A DNA stretch of 64,000 nucleotides, from positions 7,846,312 to 7,910,311 of the forward strand of contig NC_092675.1 of the NCBI RefSeq assembly GCF_964355755.1, written 5' to 3'. Under the pieces are notes generated by a model. The model had not been told where the DNA came from and ran no database searches. It saw nothing but the letters and a program-made list of their open reading frames with translations. Positions 9,001-50,799 of the stretch are shown in pieces. The translations under genes and the position numbers were made by a program. Source of the stretch: Antedon mediterranea. Its lineage: Eukaryota; Echinodermata; Crinoidea; Comatulida; Antedonidae. Position 1 is the stretch's first letter, and each line of letters starts with the position of its first letter.

Positions 9001-12000
9001 GGCCTAGCCTATTCAGGCCTACTGTAGGCTAGACCTAGTAGTACTAGCTTGGCTGAAAGGCAAAACTTCGACAGACAATTGGAACTCATTAGGCTAATTA
9101 CGATTCCACGTCTTGTAGAGGTGTTCCCATTAATTAATCAAATTCCTACAAATGATCTAAATCTAATTTAAATGCCTTTTTGATCTAAATTAGTACATAT
9201 ATCTCTCCAGAAATATACTTCCATCGCGAAAAACCAGTCATAATATTCAAATCACTGCGAAAGTACAAAATAGGTTGTTGTATTTCAAAAGCTATAGTAT
9301 AAAACAAAATATTTTACAAACGCGAAAAGATTTTTTTTTTCGTACGTGAAAAAAATTACTATTAAACGAACATGCGTACTATTCCACGCCATGTGACCCA
9401 CATTCGTCCAATCAAATGACAGGAATTTATATAGGTGTTATATAAAACCGTTAATTTTGTCATTTTATTTTTTTTTCGGGTTTTTTTTCTATGGAAGTGA
9501 TTGCATCTATATATAAATTTACGTAAGGGCAAAATTCGGTAAATCGCGCCTTACTTCTTGAATTTTCACTCGATGGTATGTAAAGTTGGTTCGTACTTTC
9601 GGTACTGATTTTAACCGCCTGATGTAACCCTGTTTACTAATTAAATTGAGTTAGATAATTAGTTATTGACGATTAAAACGAATTTAGGTTCAACGATTTG
9701 CCCCAAATAGGGGTGTTTTCCGATCGTGGTATACACTGTCTAATGGATGTCCGTCTTGAAAAATACCCGCCAAAAAAATGCGAGGAGGCTTCGCATTTTT
9801 CTATCTCCTCCTACGATAATTGTTTTTAATAGCTGAAAACCGGTTGAACAGCTAGAGTACACCATCATAATGTTGAAGACAGGCCGATTTCTTTTAAAAA
9901 ATACTATTTTGATAGATTTAATATACGATTATACAAATGTATTGATTTGCGATGAATGGAACATCCCAATCTCTCAGTCTGCCAGAGTTTGGTTTAACAC
10001 AAGTACTGTAGGTAAATTTATGAGCCCTTGGTTTAACACATACGGTAGGTAAATATATGGGCCCTTTGAGAATAAACTTGCAATAGGTTCGGAAAATGTT
10101 AAAAACCAATTTATATTATTTGAATCGGTAAACAGTTTCCATTTATTATACATTGATAATGAAACATGAAATATTCCTATTTATGTCCCTCGAGGTTCAT
10201 TACAATTTATATTTAGTAGTCCCACGGACTTCATCTTAGCCACTCCCCCGAGTGCTAAGGCCAAATTTATGATACCCTACTTTCTATGTAAGTTTAGTTA
10301 CAGTTAGTTCTTGACGATAATACAACGAATTTAGGTTACACCCTTCGGCCGCGAAAACGTTTCTGTACAAATATGATACCGATTGGCTTTATTTCATTCA
10401 ACAGCGACCATAATCTCGCCAATTACAGGATAGATAAACTATTTTATTATTGATGTGCTTATAAATTAAGACTCATGTAAACAGCTTGATTACATCATTT
10501 TACAGACAAACGAAACTTTTTTAAACCTACTGTTTCAATAACTGAGTATAATACTGTATACGTTTTCATAAGTAAGTGCATATACATTTTCGTGTTTTCA
10601 TTGACGAGATTGTAATAGTAACTTCAGTAACTATTACAGTACTTATTTATTATACGACACAAGACAATTGTATCTGACAGGTACGTACATTATTCTAAAA
10701 AATAAGTCTAGATAGATCCCTTAGGCGTCATAAATCACAGGCCAACAAATCAGTACTCATGACAGAAATTCGACCCAGTTTGGTTCACACAAATGTTTAC
10801 AGGAATTTCAACCACCACAACCGATGATTTGCCCTAAATATTTAGGTAGACTACAGTTTAATTTTTCACTGAATAGTAGCTTGAATTTCCGATTTCCATT
10901 TCGCAGAATGTCTAGGTCTATTTATTTAGTTTGGTTCTTATAATATATAAATACAATCAACTTTATTACTGCGGTTCCATCACCACCACCACGTGCCGCC
11001 CAATTCCCCGGTACATACATTTCCATTTCTCCCTAATTTCTTTAGTCCACATAAATTAATTGTCCTTTATGGAATCCAGTATTGGTTTTGTTGTCTCTAT
11101 TCTATTCTACTGTATTCGAGAACCATCTGTGAGCACCCCTAGATGGTACGCGAGCGAAGCGAGCGTGCCATCTAGTCTTTAAGAATTAACTTTAAAAACA
11201 CCGGACATATTTTCTTTTTATTAAAAAAAATTGTTTTTGCAGTTAATGAAACTGATGAGCAAAAGAGCTATATATGTCGAAAAAAATGTCTCAATGGTCA
11301 TTGTAGATATGGTGATGATTGTATCTGTTATGGATCATGGTATGGTGATTGGTGTGGTATGTGTACTATTCACATTTTATTTCAAAATATTGTACATGCT
11401 TCTTTATGATTTTTTTTAAAATGGTTTAATCTTGGTTGTTAAGGCTTTACTGTATTCTTTTTTATTTATGGAATGTGCATACAAAATTATGTAATAATAA
11501 TAATAATAATAATAAGCAATGATAATGATAATAAGCAATGATAATGATAACAAGCAATGATAATGATAACAAGCAATGATAATAAGCAATGATAATGATA
11601 ATAAGCAATGATAATGATAATAAGCAATGATAATGATAATAAGCAATGATAATGATAATAAGCAATGATAATGATAACAAGCAATGATAATGATAACAAG
11701 CAATGATAATAAGCAATGATAATGATAACAAGCAATGATAATGATAATAAGCAATGATAATGGTAATAAGCAATGATAATGATAATAAGCAATGATAATG
11801 ATAATAAGCAATGATAATGATAACAAGCAATGATAATGATAACAAGCAATGATAATGATAATAAGCAATGATAATGATAATAAGCAATGATAATGATAAA
11901 AAGTAATAATAATGATAACAAGCAATGATAATGATAACAAGCAATGATAATAAGCAATGATAATGATAATAAGCAATGATAATGATAATAAGCAATGATA

Positions 12001-45759: not shown

Positions 45760-46960
45760 TCTATATATAAATTTACGTAAGGGCAAAATTCGGTAAATCG
45801 CGCTTTACTTCTAGAATTTTTACTCGATGGTATATAAAGTTGGTTCGTACTTTCGGTACTGATTTTAACCACCTGATGTACCCCTGTTTCCTAATTAAAT
45901 TAAGTTAGATAATTAGTTATTGACGATTAAAACGAATTTAGGTTCAACGATTTGCCCCAAATAGGGGTGTTTTTCGATCGTGGTATACACTGTCTAATGG
46001 ATGTCCATCTTGAAAAATACCCACCACAAAAATGCGAGGAGGCTTCGCATTTTTCTATCTCCTCCTACGATAATTGTTTTTAATGGCTGAAAACCGGTTG
46101 AACAGCTAGAGTACAGCATCATAATGTTGAAGACAGGCCGATTTTCTTTACAAAATACTATTTTGATAGATTTAATATACGTTTATAGAAATGTATTGAT
46201 TTGCAATGAATGAAACATTCCAAATTATTGCATACCTCCATGGTTTAACACAAGTAGGTAAATTTATAGACCCTTGGAGAATAAACAGAAATAGTATTGT
46301 TATGCTATACAATACTGCAAATAGGTATTAACCACTTTTGATCGCCATTTGAATCAAAAGTGTGTTGGTACTGTTAGATATAATATAAACAAATATACTA
46401 ATAAACTTTATCACTGTGAGTGTGGGTAGTCCCTACTTTTAGATTATAAACACATAATAATATAATACTTTATTACCGTCAGTTGTTTCTCAACGTTTGT
46501 ATTAATTAATAATTACAAAAATATAAACGTATTAGTGGTCTTTAAATGTACTTTACTATGTCAATCGACCATGAGACAGTGACAGTTTCAATAAAGTATT
46601 AAATCGGAAATGTTTTACTCTATTTAGTGGTATATTATTTATAGGCCTATACAAAAAATACTTCGTTAATGATTGGATAATAAAGAAATATAAAAAATAA
46701 TTTAACAAAATTGGGTTTGTTTAAATGAGTCCAAATAACAAATTTCGACTCATTTTGTGACAAGTTTCTAGGTGTTAATTTTGGTTGACTACATAAATCA
46801 TTGTGTCTACTTATTTGTTTCTGTAAACGACAATGTTTTATAGTCCTGCCGTACGTACATTTGAAATCGCCAGCTTTTTACGCTGAAATTACTATGTATT
46901 CGAGAACCATCTGTGGGCACGAACTAGATGGTACGCGAGCGAAGTGAGCGTACCATCTAG
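45760..46960 (+). mobile_element. Helitron-like element, array unit 1
   Basis: Begins TCTATATATAAATTTACG and ends with the hairpin GATGGTACGC...GCGTACCATC and CTAG at 46957-46960; length 1,201 bp. The hairpin stem is perfect here (GTACC pairs with GGTAC), unlike the other units. The left flank is T, not the expected A. No protein is encoded. Confidence 0.7.
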
Positions 46961-49504
46961 TCTATATATAAATTTACGTAAGGGCAAAATTCGGTAAATC
47001 GCGCCTTACTTCTAGAATTTTCACTCGATGGTATGTAAAGTTGGTTCGTACTTTCGGTACTGATTTTAACCGCCTGATGTAACCCTGTTTACTAATTAAA
47101 TTGAGTTAGATAATTAGTTATTGACGATTAAAACGAATTTAGGTTCAAAGATTTGCCCCAAATAGGGGTGTTTTCCGATCGTGGTATACACTGTCTAATG
47201 GATGTCCATCTTGAAAAATACCCGCCAAAAAAATGCGAGGAGGCTTCGCATTTTTCTATCTCCTCCTACGATAATTGTTTTTAATAGCTGAAAACCGGTT
47301 GAACAGCTAGAGTACACCATCATAATGTTGAAGACAGGCCGATTTTCTTTAAAAAATACTATTTTGATAGATTTAATATACGATTATACAAATGTATTGA
47401 TTTGCGATGAATGGAACATCCCAATCTCTCAGTCTGCCAGAGTTTGGTTTAACACAAGTACTGTAGGTAAATTTATGAGCCCTTGGTTTAACACATACGG
47501 TAGGTAAATATATGGGCCCTTTGAGAATAAACTTGCAATACTTTGACAATACTGTAAATACCTATTAACTATTTTTCATTTGAATCGAACATTTCTTACT
47601 CTGAATGTTCGTACTGTTAGATGTAATATAAAAATATATACAAATAAACTTTATTACTGAGACTGTGGATAGGCTCTACTGTTAGATATACAAATAAACT
47701 TTATACTGACAGTTCCTTCTCAACGTTTGTATTAATTAATAATTACCAAAAATATAAACGTCGTAGTGGTGTATCGTGACATGTACTTTAATATTTCAAT
47801 CGATTAAGACAGTGACAGTTTTAACAAAGTATTAAATCGCAAATGTTTTAGGCCTACTGTATCTAGAGGTATATTATTTATAGGCCTATAAAACATGAAC
47901 AAAATATTTCGTTACTCAGTGGATAAAGAATATATTTAAAAATTGTTCCTCTTTGTACCTATCCGCTTTCCCATCCCTCAACCCTAATGTTACATAGCGA
48001 GGAGGCTTCGCATTTTCCTATCTCCTCCTACGATAATTGTTTTTAATAGCTGAAAACCGGTTGAACAGCTAGAGTACACCATCATAATGTTGAAGACAGG
48101 CCGATTTTCTTTAAAAAATACTATTTTGATAGATTGCTAGAGTACACCATCATAATGTTGAAGACAGGCCGATTTTCTTTAAAAAATACTATTTTGATAG
48201 ATTTAATATACGATTATACAAATGTATTGATTTGCGATGAATGGAACATCCAGTTTGGTTTAACACAAGTACTGTAGGTAAATTTATGAGCCCTTGGTTT
48301 AACACATACGGTAGGTAAATATATGGGCCCTTTGAGAATAAACTTGCAATAGGTTCGGAAAATGTTAAAAACCAATTTCTATTATTTGAATCGGTAAACA
48401 GTTTCCATTTATTATACATTGATAATGAAACATGAAATATTCCTATTTATGTCCCTCGAGGTTCATTACAATTTATATTTAGTAGTCCCACGGACTTCAT
48501 CTTAGCCACTCCCTCGAGTGCTAAGGCCAAATTTATGATACCTTACTTTCTATGTAAGTTTAGTTACAGTTAGTTCTTGACGATAATACAACGAATTTAG
48601 GTTACACCCTTCGGCCGCGAAAACGTTTCTGTACAAATATGATACCGATTGGCTTTATTTCATTCAACAGCGACCATAATCTCGCCAATTACAGGATAGA
48701 TAAACTATTTTATTATTGATGTGCTTATAAATTAAGACTCATGTAAACAGCTTGATTACATCATTTTACAGACAAACGAAACTTTTTTAAACCTACTGTT
48801 TCAATAACTGAGTATAATACTGTATACGTTTTCATAAGTAAGTGCATATACATTTTCGTGTTTTCATTGACGAGATTGTAATAGTAACTTCAGTAACTAT
48901 TACAGTACTTATTAATATACGACACAAGACAATTGTATCTGACAGGTACGTACATTATTCTAAAAAATAAGTCTAGATAGATCCCTTGGGCGTCATAAAT
49001 CACAGGCCAACAAATCAGTACTCATGACAGAAATTCGACCCAGTTTGGTTCACACAAATGTTTACAGGAAGTTCAACACCACAACCGATGATTTGCCCTA
49101 AATATTTAGGTAGACTACAGTTTAATTTTTCACTGAATAGGAGCTTGAATTTTCGATTTCCATTTCGCAGAATGTCTAGGTCTATTTAGTTAGTTTGGTT
49201 CTTATAATATAAATACAATCAACTTTATTACTGCGGTTCCATCACCACCACCACGTGCCGCCGCCCAATTCCCGTACATACATTTCCATTTCTCCCTAAT
49301 TTCTTTAATCCACATAAATTAATTGTCCTTTATGGAATCCAGTATTGGTTTTGTTGTTTCTATTTCTGAATACCCCAATTAGGGGGACACTTCCGTTTTT
49401 GTTTAGTGTCCCAAAAAAGTCCCCGTCCGTGGATTCTACTGTATTCGAGAACCATCTGTGAGCACCCCTAGATGGTACGCGAGCGAAGCGAGCGTGCCAT
49501 CTAG
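46961..49504 (+). mobile_element. Helitron-like element, array unit 2 (composite)
   Basis: Starts TCTATATATAAATTTACG directly after CTAG of unit 1, with no intervening base, and ends CTAG at 49501-49504; 2,544 bp. The first 0.6 kb matches the dispersed copy at 9506; 47530-47995 resembles the tail of units 1 and 3. At about 47998 the GCGAGGAGGCTTCGCATTTT module recurs and then runs into the long tail seen at 9840-11175. About 66 bp (CTAGAGTACACCATCATAAT...) is tandemly repeated at 48073 and 48137. It therefore looks like two family members fused by internal recombination. Confidence 0.7.
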
Positions 49505-50799
49505 TCTATATATAAATTTACGTAAGGGCAAAATTCGGTAAATCGCGCCTTACTTCTAGAATTTTTACTCGATGGTATATAAAGTTGGTTCGTACTTTCG
49601 GTACTGATTTTAACCACCTGATGTAACCCTGTTTACTAATTAAATTAAGTTAGATAATTAGTTATTGACGATTAAAACGAATTTAGGTTCAACGATTTGC
49701 CCCAAATAGGGGTGTTTTCCGATCGTGGTATACACTGTCTAATGGATGTCCATCTTGAAAAATACCCGCCGCAAAAATGCGAGGAGGCTTCGCATTTTCC
49801 TATCTCCTCCTACGATAATTGTTTTTAATAGCTGAAAACCGGTTGAACAGTTCGAGTACAGCATCATAATGTTGAAGACAGGCCGATTTTCTTTAAAAAA
49901 TACTATTTTGATACATTTAATATACGTTTATACAAATGTATTGATTTGTGATGAATGGAACATTCCAAATTATTTGGTTTAACCATACAGGTATAGATTT
50001 AGATTTATGGGCCCCCTTGGAGAATAAACATAAATAGTATTGCAATGCTGTACAATACTGTTAAGGTATTAACCACTTTTGATCGCAATTTGAATCGCAA
50101 ATTTCTTACTGTGAGTGTTGGTACTGTTAGATGTAATATAAAAATATATACAAATAAACTTTATTACTGTGAGTGTGGGTAGGCCCTACTGTTAGATTAT
50201 AAACATATAATATACAAATAAATAAACGTTATTACTGACAGTTGCTTCTCAACGTTTGTATTAATTAATAATTTAAAAATATATAAACGTCGTAGTGGTG
50301 TATCGTTACATGTACTTTACTATTTCAATCGACTATGACAGTGAGAGTTTTAACAAAGTACCGTATTAAATCGTAAATGTTTTACTGTATTTAGTGGTAT
50401 ATTATTTATAGGCCTATAAAACATTAAAAACAATATTTCGTTACTGAGTGGATAAGAATATATTTTAAAATGTTTCCTCTTTGTACCTATCTTCTTCCCC
50501 CATCCCTCAACCCTTAATGTTACATACAAAACACAAATTGGGTTTGTTTAAATGAGTCCAAATAAAAAAATTTGACTCATTTTGTTTCTCTCTCGGAAGT
50601 AATTCTCAGGGTGCTAATTTTGGTTGACTACATAAATCATTGTGTATATTTATTCGTTTCTGTAAACGACAATGTATTATAGTCCTGCGGTACGTACATT
50701 TGAAATCTCCATTTTTTTCTCGCTGGAAATACTGTGTATTAAGAACCATCTGTGGGCACGACCTAGATGGTACGCGAGCGAAGCGAGCGTGCCATCTAG
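49505..50799 (+). mobile_element. Helitron-like element, array unit 3
   Basis: Starts TCTATATATAAATTTACG directly after CTAG of unit 2 and ends GTGCCATCTAG at 50799, followed by T. Length 1,295 bp, closest to unit 1 in its tail. No protein is encoded. Confidence 0.7.

Follow-up and report, generated by a model that had tools for sequence, protein, structure and literature searches.

The closest described system is that of the Helibat/Helraiser elements of Myotis lucifugus, canonical Helitron1 transposons that share with the family analysed here a TC start, a CTAG end, a 3' hairpin, insertion between A and T, and, by way of its candidate partner, a RepHel protein with Rep and Pif1-like helicase domains. 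The two systems differ in that the hairpin stem of our family reaches the last base and includes the CTAG, whereas in Helibat/Helraiser it stands some bases upstream, and in that exact head-to-tail joins here number tens in one family. For Helraiser, both circles and tandems in the genome have been reported in which CTAG abuts TC exactly (PMC4778049, PMC5876387), and Grabundzija et al. described Myotis insertions directly beside another Helitron (PMC4778049). Exact head-to-tail Helitrons in bats have also been cited as support for rolling-circle concatemers, as told in two later papers (PMC2267711, PMC5876387). For maize, Du et al. 2008 argued for consecutive insertion of one dissimilar adjacent pair in the r1 region, with the order left unclear (PMC2267711); that pair resembles ours in its exact CTAG|TC join, its dissimilar elements, and its interpretation as consecutive insertion, but it is one case, whereas the present family offers 67 exact joins, polarity controls, and one locus pair pointing to the 5' border. 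Among the fungal cases is a triple for which insertion into a 5' end and rolling-circle replication were both kept as explanations (PMC5148889).

The type of structure is already known from bats, maize, and fungi, and what is new here is its scale and number, its precision, its polarity, and one ordered pair. Xiong et al. (2016, cited in PMC5876387) reportedly found tandem Helitrons in plant centromeres. The plant-centromere and fungal tandems are alike in their head-to-tail arrangement and have been explained by circles, rolling-circle amplification, or 5'-end insertion, whereas the units of our family are heterogeneous. The literature searched, which lay mostly outside subscription journals, yielded no previous description of strict orientation at a resident 5' border. 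Head-to-tail joins are common enough in this family to test the claim of rolling-circle concatemers that has stood since the bat genome, and they point instead to different elements inserting one after another at the terminus of a resident.

Three Helitrons head to tail in a crinoid genome

The window, a stretch of 64,000 nucleotides on contig C6 of the Antedon mediterranea assembly (354 Mb, 18 contigs), holds three complete Helitron units head to tail at 45760-50799 on the + strand, with two exact CTAG|TC joins and zero spacer, as the initial annotation had described. Unit 1 (45760-46960, 1201 bp) is followed by unit 2 (46961-49504, 2544 bp) and unit 3 (49505-50799, 1295 bp), and a solo copy of 1670 bp lies at 9506-11175 on the same strand. 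The start TCTATATATAAATTTACG occurs at 9506, 45760, 46961, and 49505 and the end CCATCTAG at 11175, 46960, 49504, and 50799, all on the + strand; all four copies carry TCTATATATAAATTTACGTAAGGGC at the start and the palindrome CTAGATGG...CCATCTAG at the end, and the longest open frame in each is at most 85 aa. Both inner borders of the array read CCATCTAG|TCTATATATAAATTTACGTAAG, also given as CTAG|TCTATATA—junction 1, between units 1 and 2, at 46957-46966 (CTAG|TCTATA, border 46960/46961; C6:7893268-7893289), and junction 2, between units 2 and 3, at 49501-49510 (CTAG|TCTATA, border 49504/49505; C6:7895812-7895833). The left terminal sequence (LTS) of unit 1, beginning TCTATATATAAATTTACGTAAGGGC at 45760-45811, folds as a short imperfect inverted repeat and is kept in 30 sampled copies. 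Right terminal hairpins fold at 46924-46960 in unit 1, where both CTAG tetranucleotides fall in the stem, at 49468-49504 in unit 2, and at 50763-50799 in unit 3, the last being followed by a host T. The solo copy, in the context gca|TC...CTAG|tct, defines the ends and bears out the boundaries A|TC...CTAG|T originally proposed. The base 5' of the window array is instead T (gtgct|TCTATA), an exception genome-wide. Unit 2 also has an internal duplication, in which its positions 275-413 recur at its 1037-1175 (window 47997-48135) with 138 of 139 bases identical; after this repeat the unit picks up again from about position 346 and so reads as a rearranged composite.

Across the genome there are 1937 exact matches to the 23-base start and 1632 matches to the 3' hairpin when up to two mismatches are allowed. 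The base before the start was A in 29 of 30 copies sampled on C1 (the first starts in order along that contig, not a random sample), and the base after CTAG was T in all 14 of those with a readable 3' end; among distinct non-junction flanks, A preceded the start in 42 of 43. At the array loci examined, the outer flanks of whole arrays were A and T, and the border showed no target-site duplication in the locus pair L022/L023. The family thus has the marks of Helitron1: TC and CTAG termini, insertion between A and T (the window array itself being preceded by T), and a 3' hairpin whose 13-bp outer stem includes the final CTAG and runs to the last base instead of stopping short of that tetranucleotide, with a free energy of about -26 kcal/mol for the whole 60-base 3' fold (RNA parameters). 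Since solo copies sit between A and T, the window elements are a canonical (A^T, TC...CTAG) Helitron family, and a non-autonomous one. Membership in Helentron/Helitron2, which use TT or a similar target and have terminal inverted repeats and no TC...CTRR ends, was rejected on the A|T target and the TC...CTAG ends. Separately, two pairs of starts on C1 face each other exactly 1312 bp apart (6610724(+)/6612036(-) and 6637626(+)/6638938(-)) and look like an element with a left end on both sides.

Number, polarity, and relatedness of the joins

A whole-genome search with a gapped pattern, CCATCTAG to AAATTTACGTAAG, recovered 93 head-to-tail junctions, 67 of them exactly CTAG|TCTATATATAAATTTACGTAAG and spread over 11 contigs; set against starts, as the initial annotation had suggested, exact CTAG|TCTATATATAAATTTACG junctions numbered 70 to the 1937 exact starts. 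These whole-genome counts rest on listed match positions, and loci were cut out around 30 junctions and 30 starts. If the 1937 elements had inserted at random A|T sites, about 0.02 exact joins would be expected, so that the observed number is far beyond chance. The earlier identification of these elements as Helitrons with precise ends and precise end-to-start joins is supported. Some of the 67 are one event duplicated segmentally—three on C5 at 30.5 Mb, L013/L014, for example—so that independent events perhaps number about 60. Most inexact junctions have a slightly changed start or lie inside a TA run, and a few have a 2-3 bp spacer; a spacer of 6-36 bp was found at one locus, in three copies. 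The whole genome yielded no head-to-head joins, whether the elements abutted directly or stood up to about 30 bp apart, and no tail-to-tail joins at spacings of 0-30 bp. Instability of kilobase palindromes could partly account for the missing head-to-head pairs, but tail-to-tail pairs are lacking as well, and so are head-to-head pairs separated by up to about 30 bp. One further locus (L087, C1:4540051, - strand), with flanks ttattatctata and TATATATAAATTTA, is probably an insertion within the TA run of another element's start, a rarer and imprecise form of the end-to-end event.

Neighbours are rarely each other's closest relatives. When the units of 30 junction loci were compared with a reference set of 64 sequences, some of the units being open at one end, no upstream unit found its best match in its downstream neighbour, and a single downstream unit (at L006) found its best match in its upstream neighbour. 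Within the window, similarity is 83% between units 1 and 3 (compared at full length), about 82-84% between units 1 and 2, and about 85-87% between units 2 and 3, whereas relatives of units 2 and 3 elsewhere reach 97.6-99.1%: unit 2 is 99.1% identical to a unit on C3 (the downstream one at L015), and unit 3 is 97.7% identical to units on C4 and C5 (L028_u and L024_u). Unit 1 has a relative at 95.6% (L026_d). A rolling-circle concatemer should consist of near-identical neighbours that are each other's nearest relatives, and the units here are not of that kind. We also considered movement of the 1177-bp unit together with a unit-2-like element as one composite: the downstream unit of L015 differs by 0.46% from window unit 2 and by 1.13% from that of L021, and because the two downstream units are not sisters, independent insertion is weakly preferred.

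Origin of the arrays

A pair of paralogous loci on C4, the only pair that orders an insertion, is informative about how a unit was added. The left flank, ending ACAGTA, is identical over the 150 bp compared; at L022 it is followed by a 1292-bp unit and a further unit X, and at L023/L024 by a 1171-bp unit, the 1292-bp unit, and X. The 1292-bp unit is 99.9% identical between the two loci and X is common to both. Thirty sites, the first at position 29, tell the 1292-bp and 1171-bp units apart, and the 1292-bp unit of L022 is of its own type at every one of them; the simplest reading is thus a gain of the 1171-bp unit between the host A and the resident T. The 1171-bp unit may instead have been lost from L022 by recombination, but such a loss needs a crossover within the first 29 of about 1170 bp. 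A comparison of ages between upstream and downstream units gave 7 versus 9, with no signal of younger upstream units.

We consider it likely that the window array consists of three non-autonomous members of one family that inserted independently and serially at the 5' terminus of a resident, always in the same orientation. A newcomer would enter exactly at the border between host A and resident TC, producing a CTAG|TC join without spacer, and serial insertion there accounts for both the heterogeneous units and the A|T border. Just short of an even chance, in our estimate, is the further proposal that the resident LTS serves the transposase as a target, precise to the base and specific for one strand; arrays would then grow only 5' of residents, and the terminus would be both origin and landing site. 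Under this proposal a RepHel transposase would take the resident left terminus as its target, recognising it and nicking it on one strand as it would when starting transposition; the incoming 3' CTAG end would be joined to the resident 5' TC, giving the sequence that is also found where Helraiser circles close (PMC4778049), and the incoming 5' TC to the host A. Donors would probably come as single-strand or circular intermediates from a RepHel element like that at C1:29.68 Mb. Use of a one-strand nick at the left terminus would account for precision and polarity together. If the transposase does cut resident left ends as targets, this is a directly testable property of RepHel, and it would offer a route to composite Helitrons and to the seeds of tandem repeats.

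Among the alternatives, the best has a Helitron circle recombine homologously with a resident relative and integrate there, giving a precise tandem with no choice of target. It explains orientation and precision together, and units do share several hundred bp of similar sequence; it should, however, produce reciprocal chimeras, whereas all 30 diagnostic sites at L022/L023 stay with their own unit, and three arrays carry the 1171-1177-bp unit intact and, counting substitutions, at least 99.5% identical. The C4 pair speaks against it, since a crossover confined to the first 29 positions of a unit of about 1170 bp would be needed there, and we regard this explanation as unlikely. Slightly less credible still is rolling-circle read-through or a multimeric circle, in which one event running past the terminator lays down several copies in a row. 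This would yield only precise, head-to-tail, zero-spacer joins, and Helraiser circles with the precise CTAG|TC join provide a precedent (PMC4778049, PMC5876387), but it predicts near-identical neighbours, and nearly all of the 30 junction loci, like the window, combine different subfamilies. As neighbours are mostly not sisters, a concatemer made in a single event is disfavoured; read-through is largely refuted for the window array and would survive only for arrays of sister units. Failed rolling-circle termination, one of two origins put forward by the initial annotation, is thus not supported, and its term "direct concatemer" is misleading for what appears to be serial insertion of mostly different subfamilies. 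Its other suggestion, repeated insertion at the end of an earlier element, holds as to serial insertion but not as to the site, which at the C4 pair is the resident 5' A|T and not the CTAG-T end.

Two other readings seem very improbable to us. Chance joins from untargeted insertion at the A|T sites of AT-rich DNA were one route that Du et al. considered for maize (PMC2267711), and this reading gains something from the AT-rich resident start TCTATATATAAATT, with A|T at its border, and from the few junctions that are 2-3 bp off or in a TA run. Its simple form is already refuted by the excess of exact joins over expectation (67 against about 0.02); moreover, alternative A|T sites inside the same 15-bp stretch and over the following 36 bp are hardly used, and head-to-head joins do not occur although the A|T target is symmetric. 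With nearby A|T sites mostly spared and orientation fixed, a blind preference for A|T is insufficient. An assembly artefact, whether expansion or misjoining at repeats, deserves mention because the arrays were judged from the assembly, but to produce them it would have to join units that differ by about 13-18% and are unequal in length, and to do so in 67 exact joins over 11 contigs while leaving a proper A and T at the outer flanks of the arrays examined.

A candidate autonomous partner

Genome-wide, the Rep domain gave 87 hits, with only a handful of canonical RepHel frames of about 1400 aa. One of these, on C1, is a single frame of 1439 aa with a Rep-domain hit at C1:29681497-29682036, an HVH motif, and a Pif1 helicase match at C1:29683438-29684067. 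Homology to the window elements begins about 850 bp past its stop codon: 1157 bp of this downstream DNA are 97.8% identical to unit 2 (whose homologous 3' part, on the + strand at 48351-49504, extends through the terminal CTAG), through the hairpin to CTAG|T, and the DNA is also 98.0% identical over 1020 bp to the 3' part of the solo copy (10085-11175, + strand), with 100% identity over the last 72 bp. From this 3' homology, the element at C1:29.68 Mb is a probable autonomous partner of the window Helitrons, and the solo copy and unit 2 are probably deletion derivatives of an element like it. At the left, no terminus was found within 3.4 kb upstream of the frame, and no exact start of the window type stood among the listed matches nearby; the frame may accordingly be an accidental neighbour of a Helitron 3' end. 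At C5:12.37 Mb, a sister RepHel terminates in CTAGAGGGTCGCGAGCGAAGCGAGCGAACCCTCTAG|T and has the hairpin core in common.

A family of larger RepHel proteins, near 3100 aa, was also considered as partner and set aside for its C1 copies below about 24.7 Mb, the part covered by the listed ends, as no matching 3' end was found near them. The genome has about 50 such large Rep/Pif1 frames, most near 3100 aa and many without stops, with Helitron_like_N; the one frame of this type that was scanned (L041) also contained DUF6570. The large frames are partly clustered, in one orientation per cluster and some 20-70 kb apart, at C8:0.80-0.94 Mb (+), C4:19.88-20.02 Mb (-), C1:14.51-14.55 Mb (-), C1:23.05-23.17 Mb (+), and C3:20.30-20.36 Mb (-), and these clusters may be head-to-tail very large Helitron-like elements or segmental duplications.
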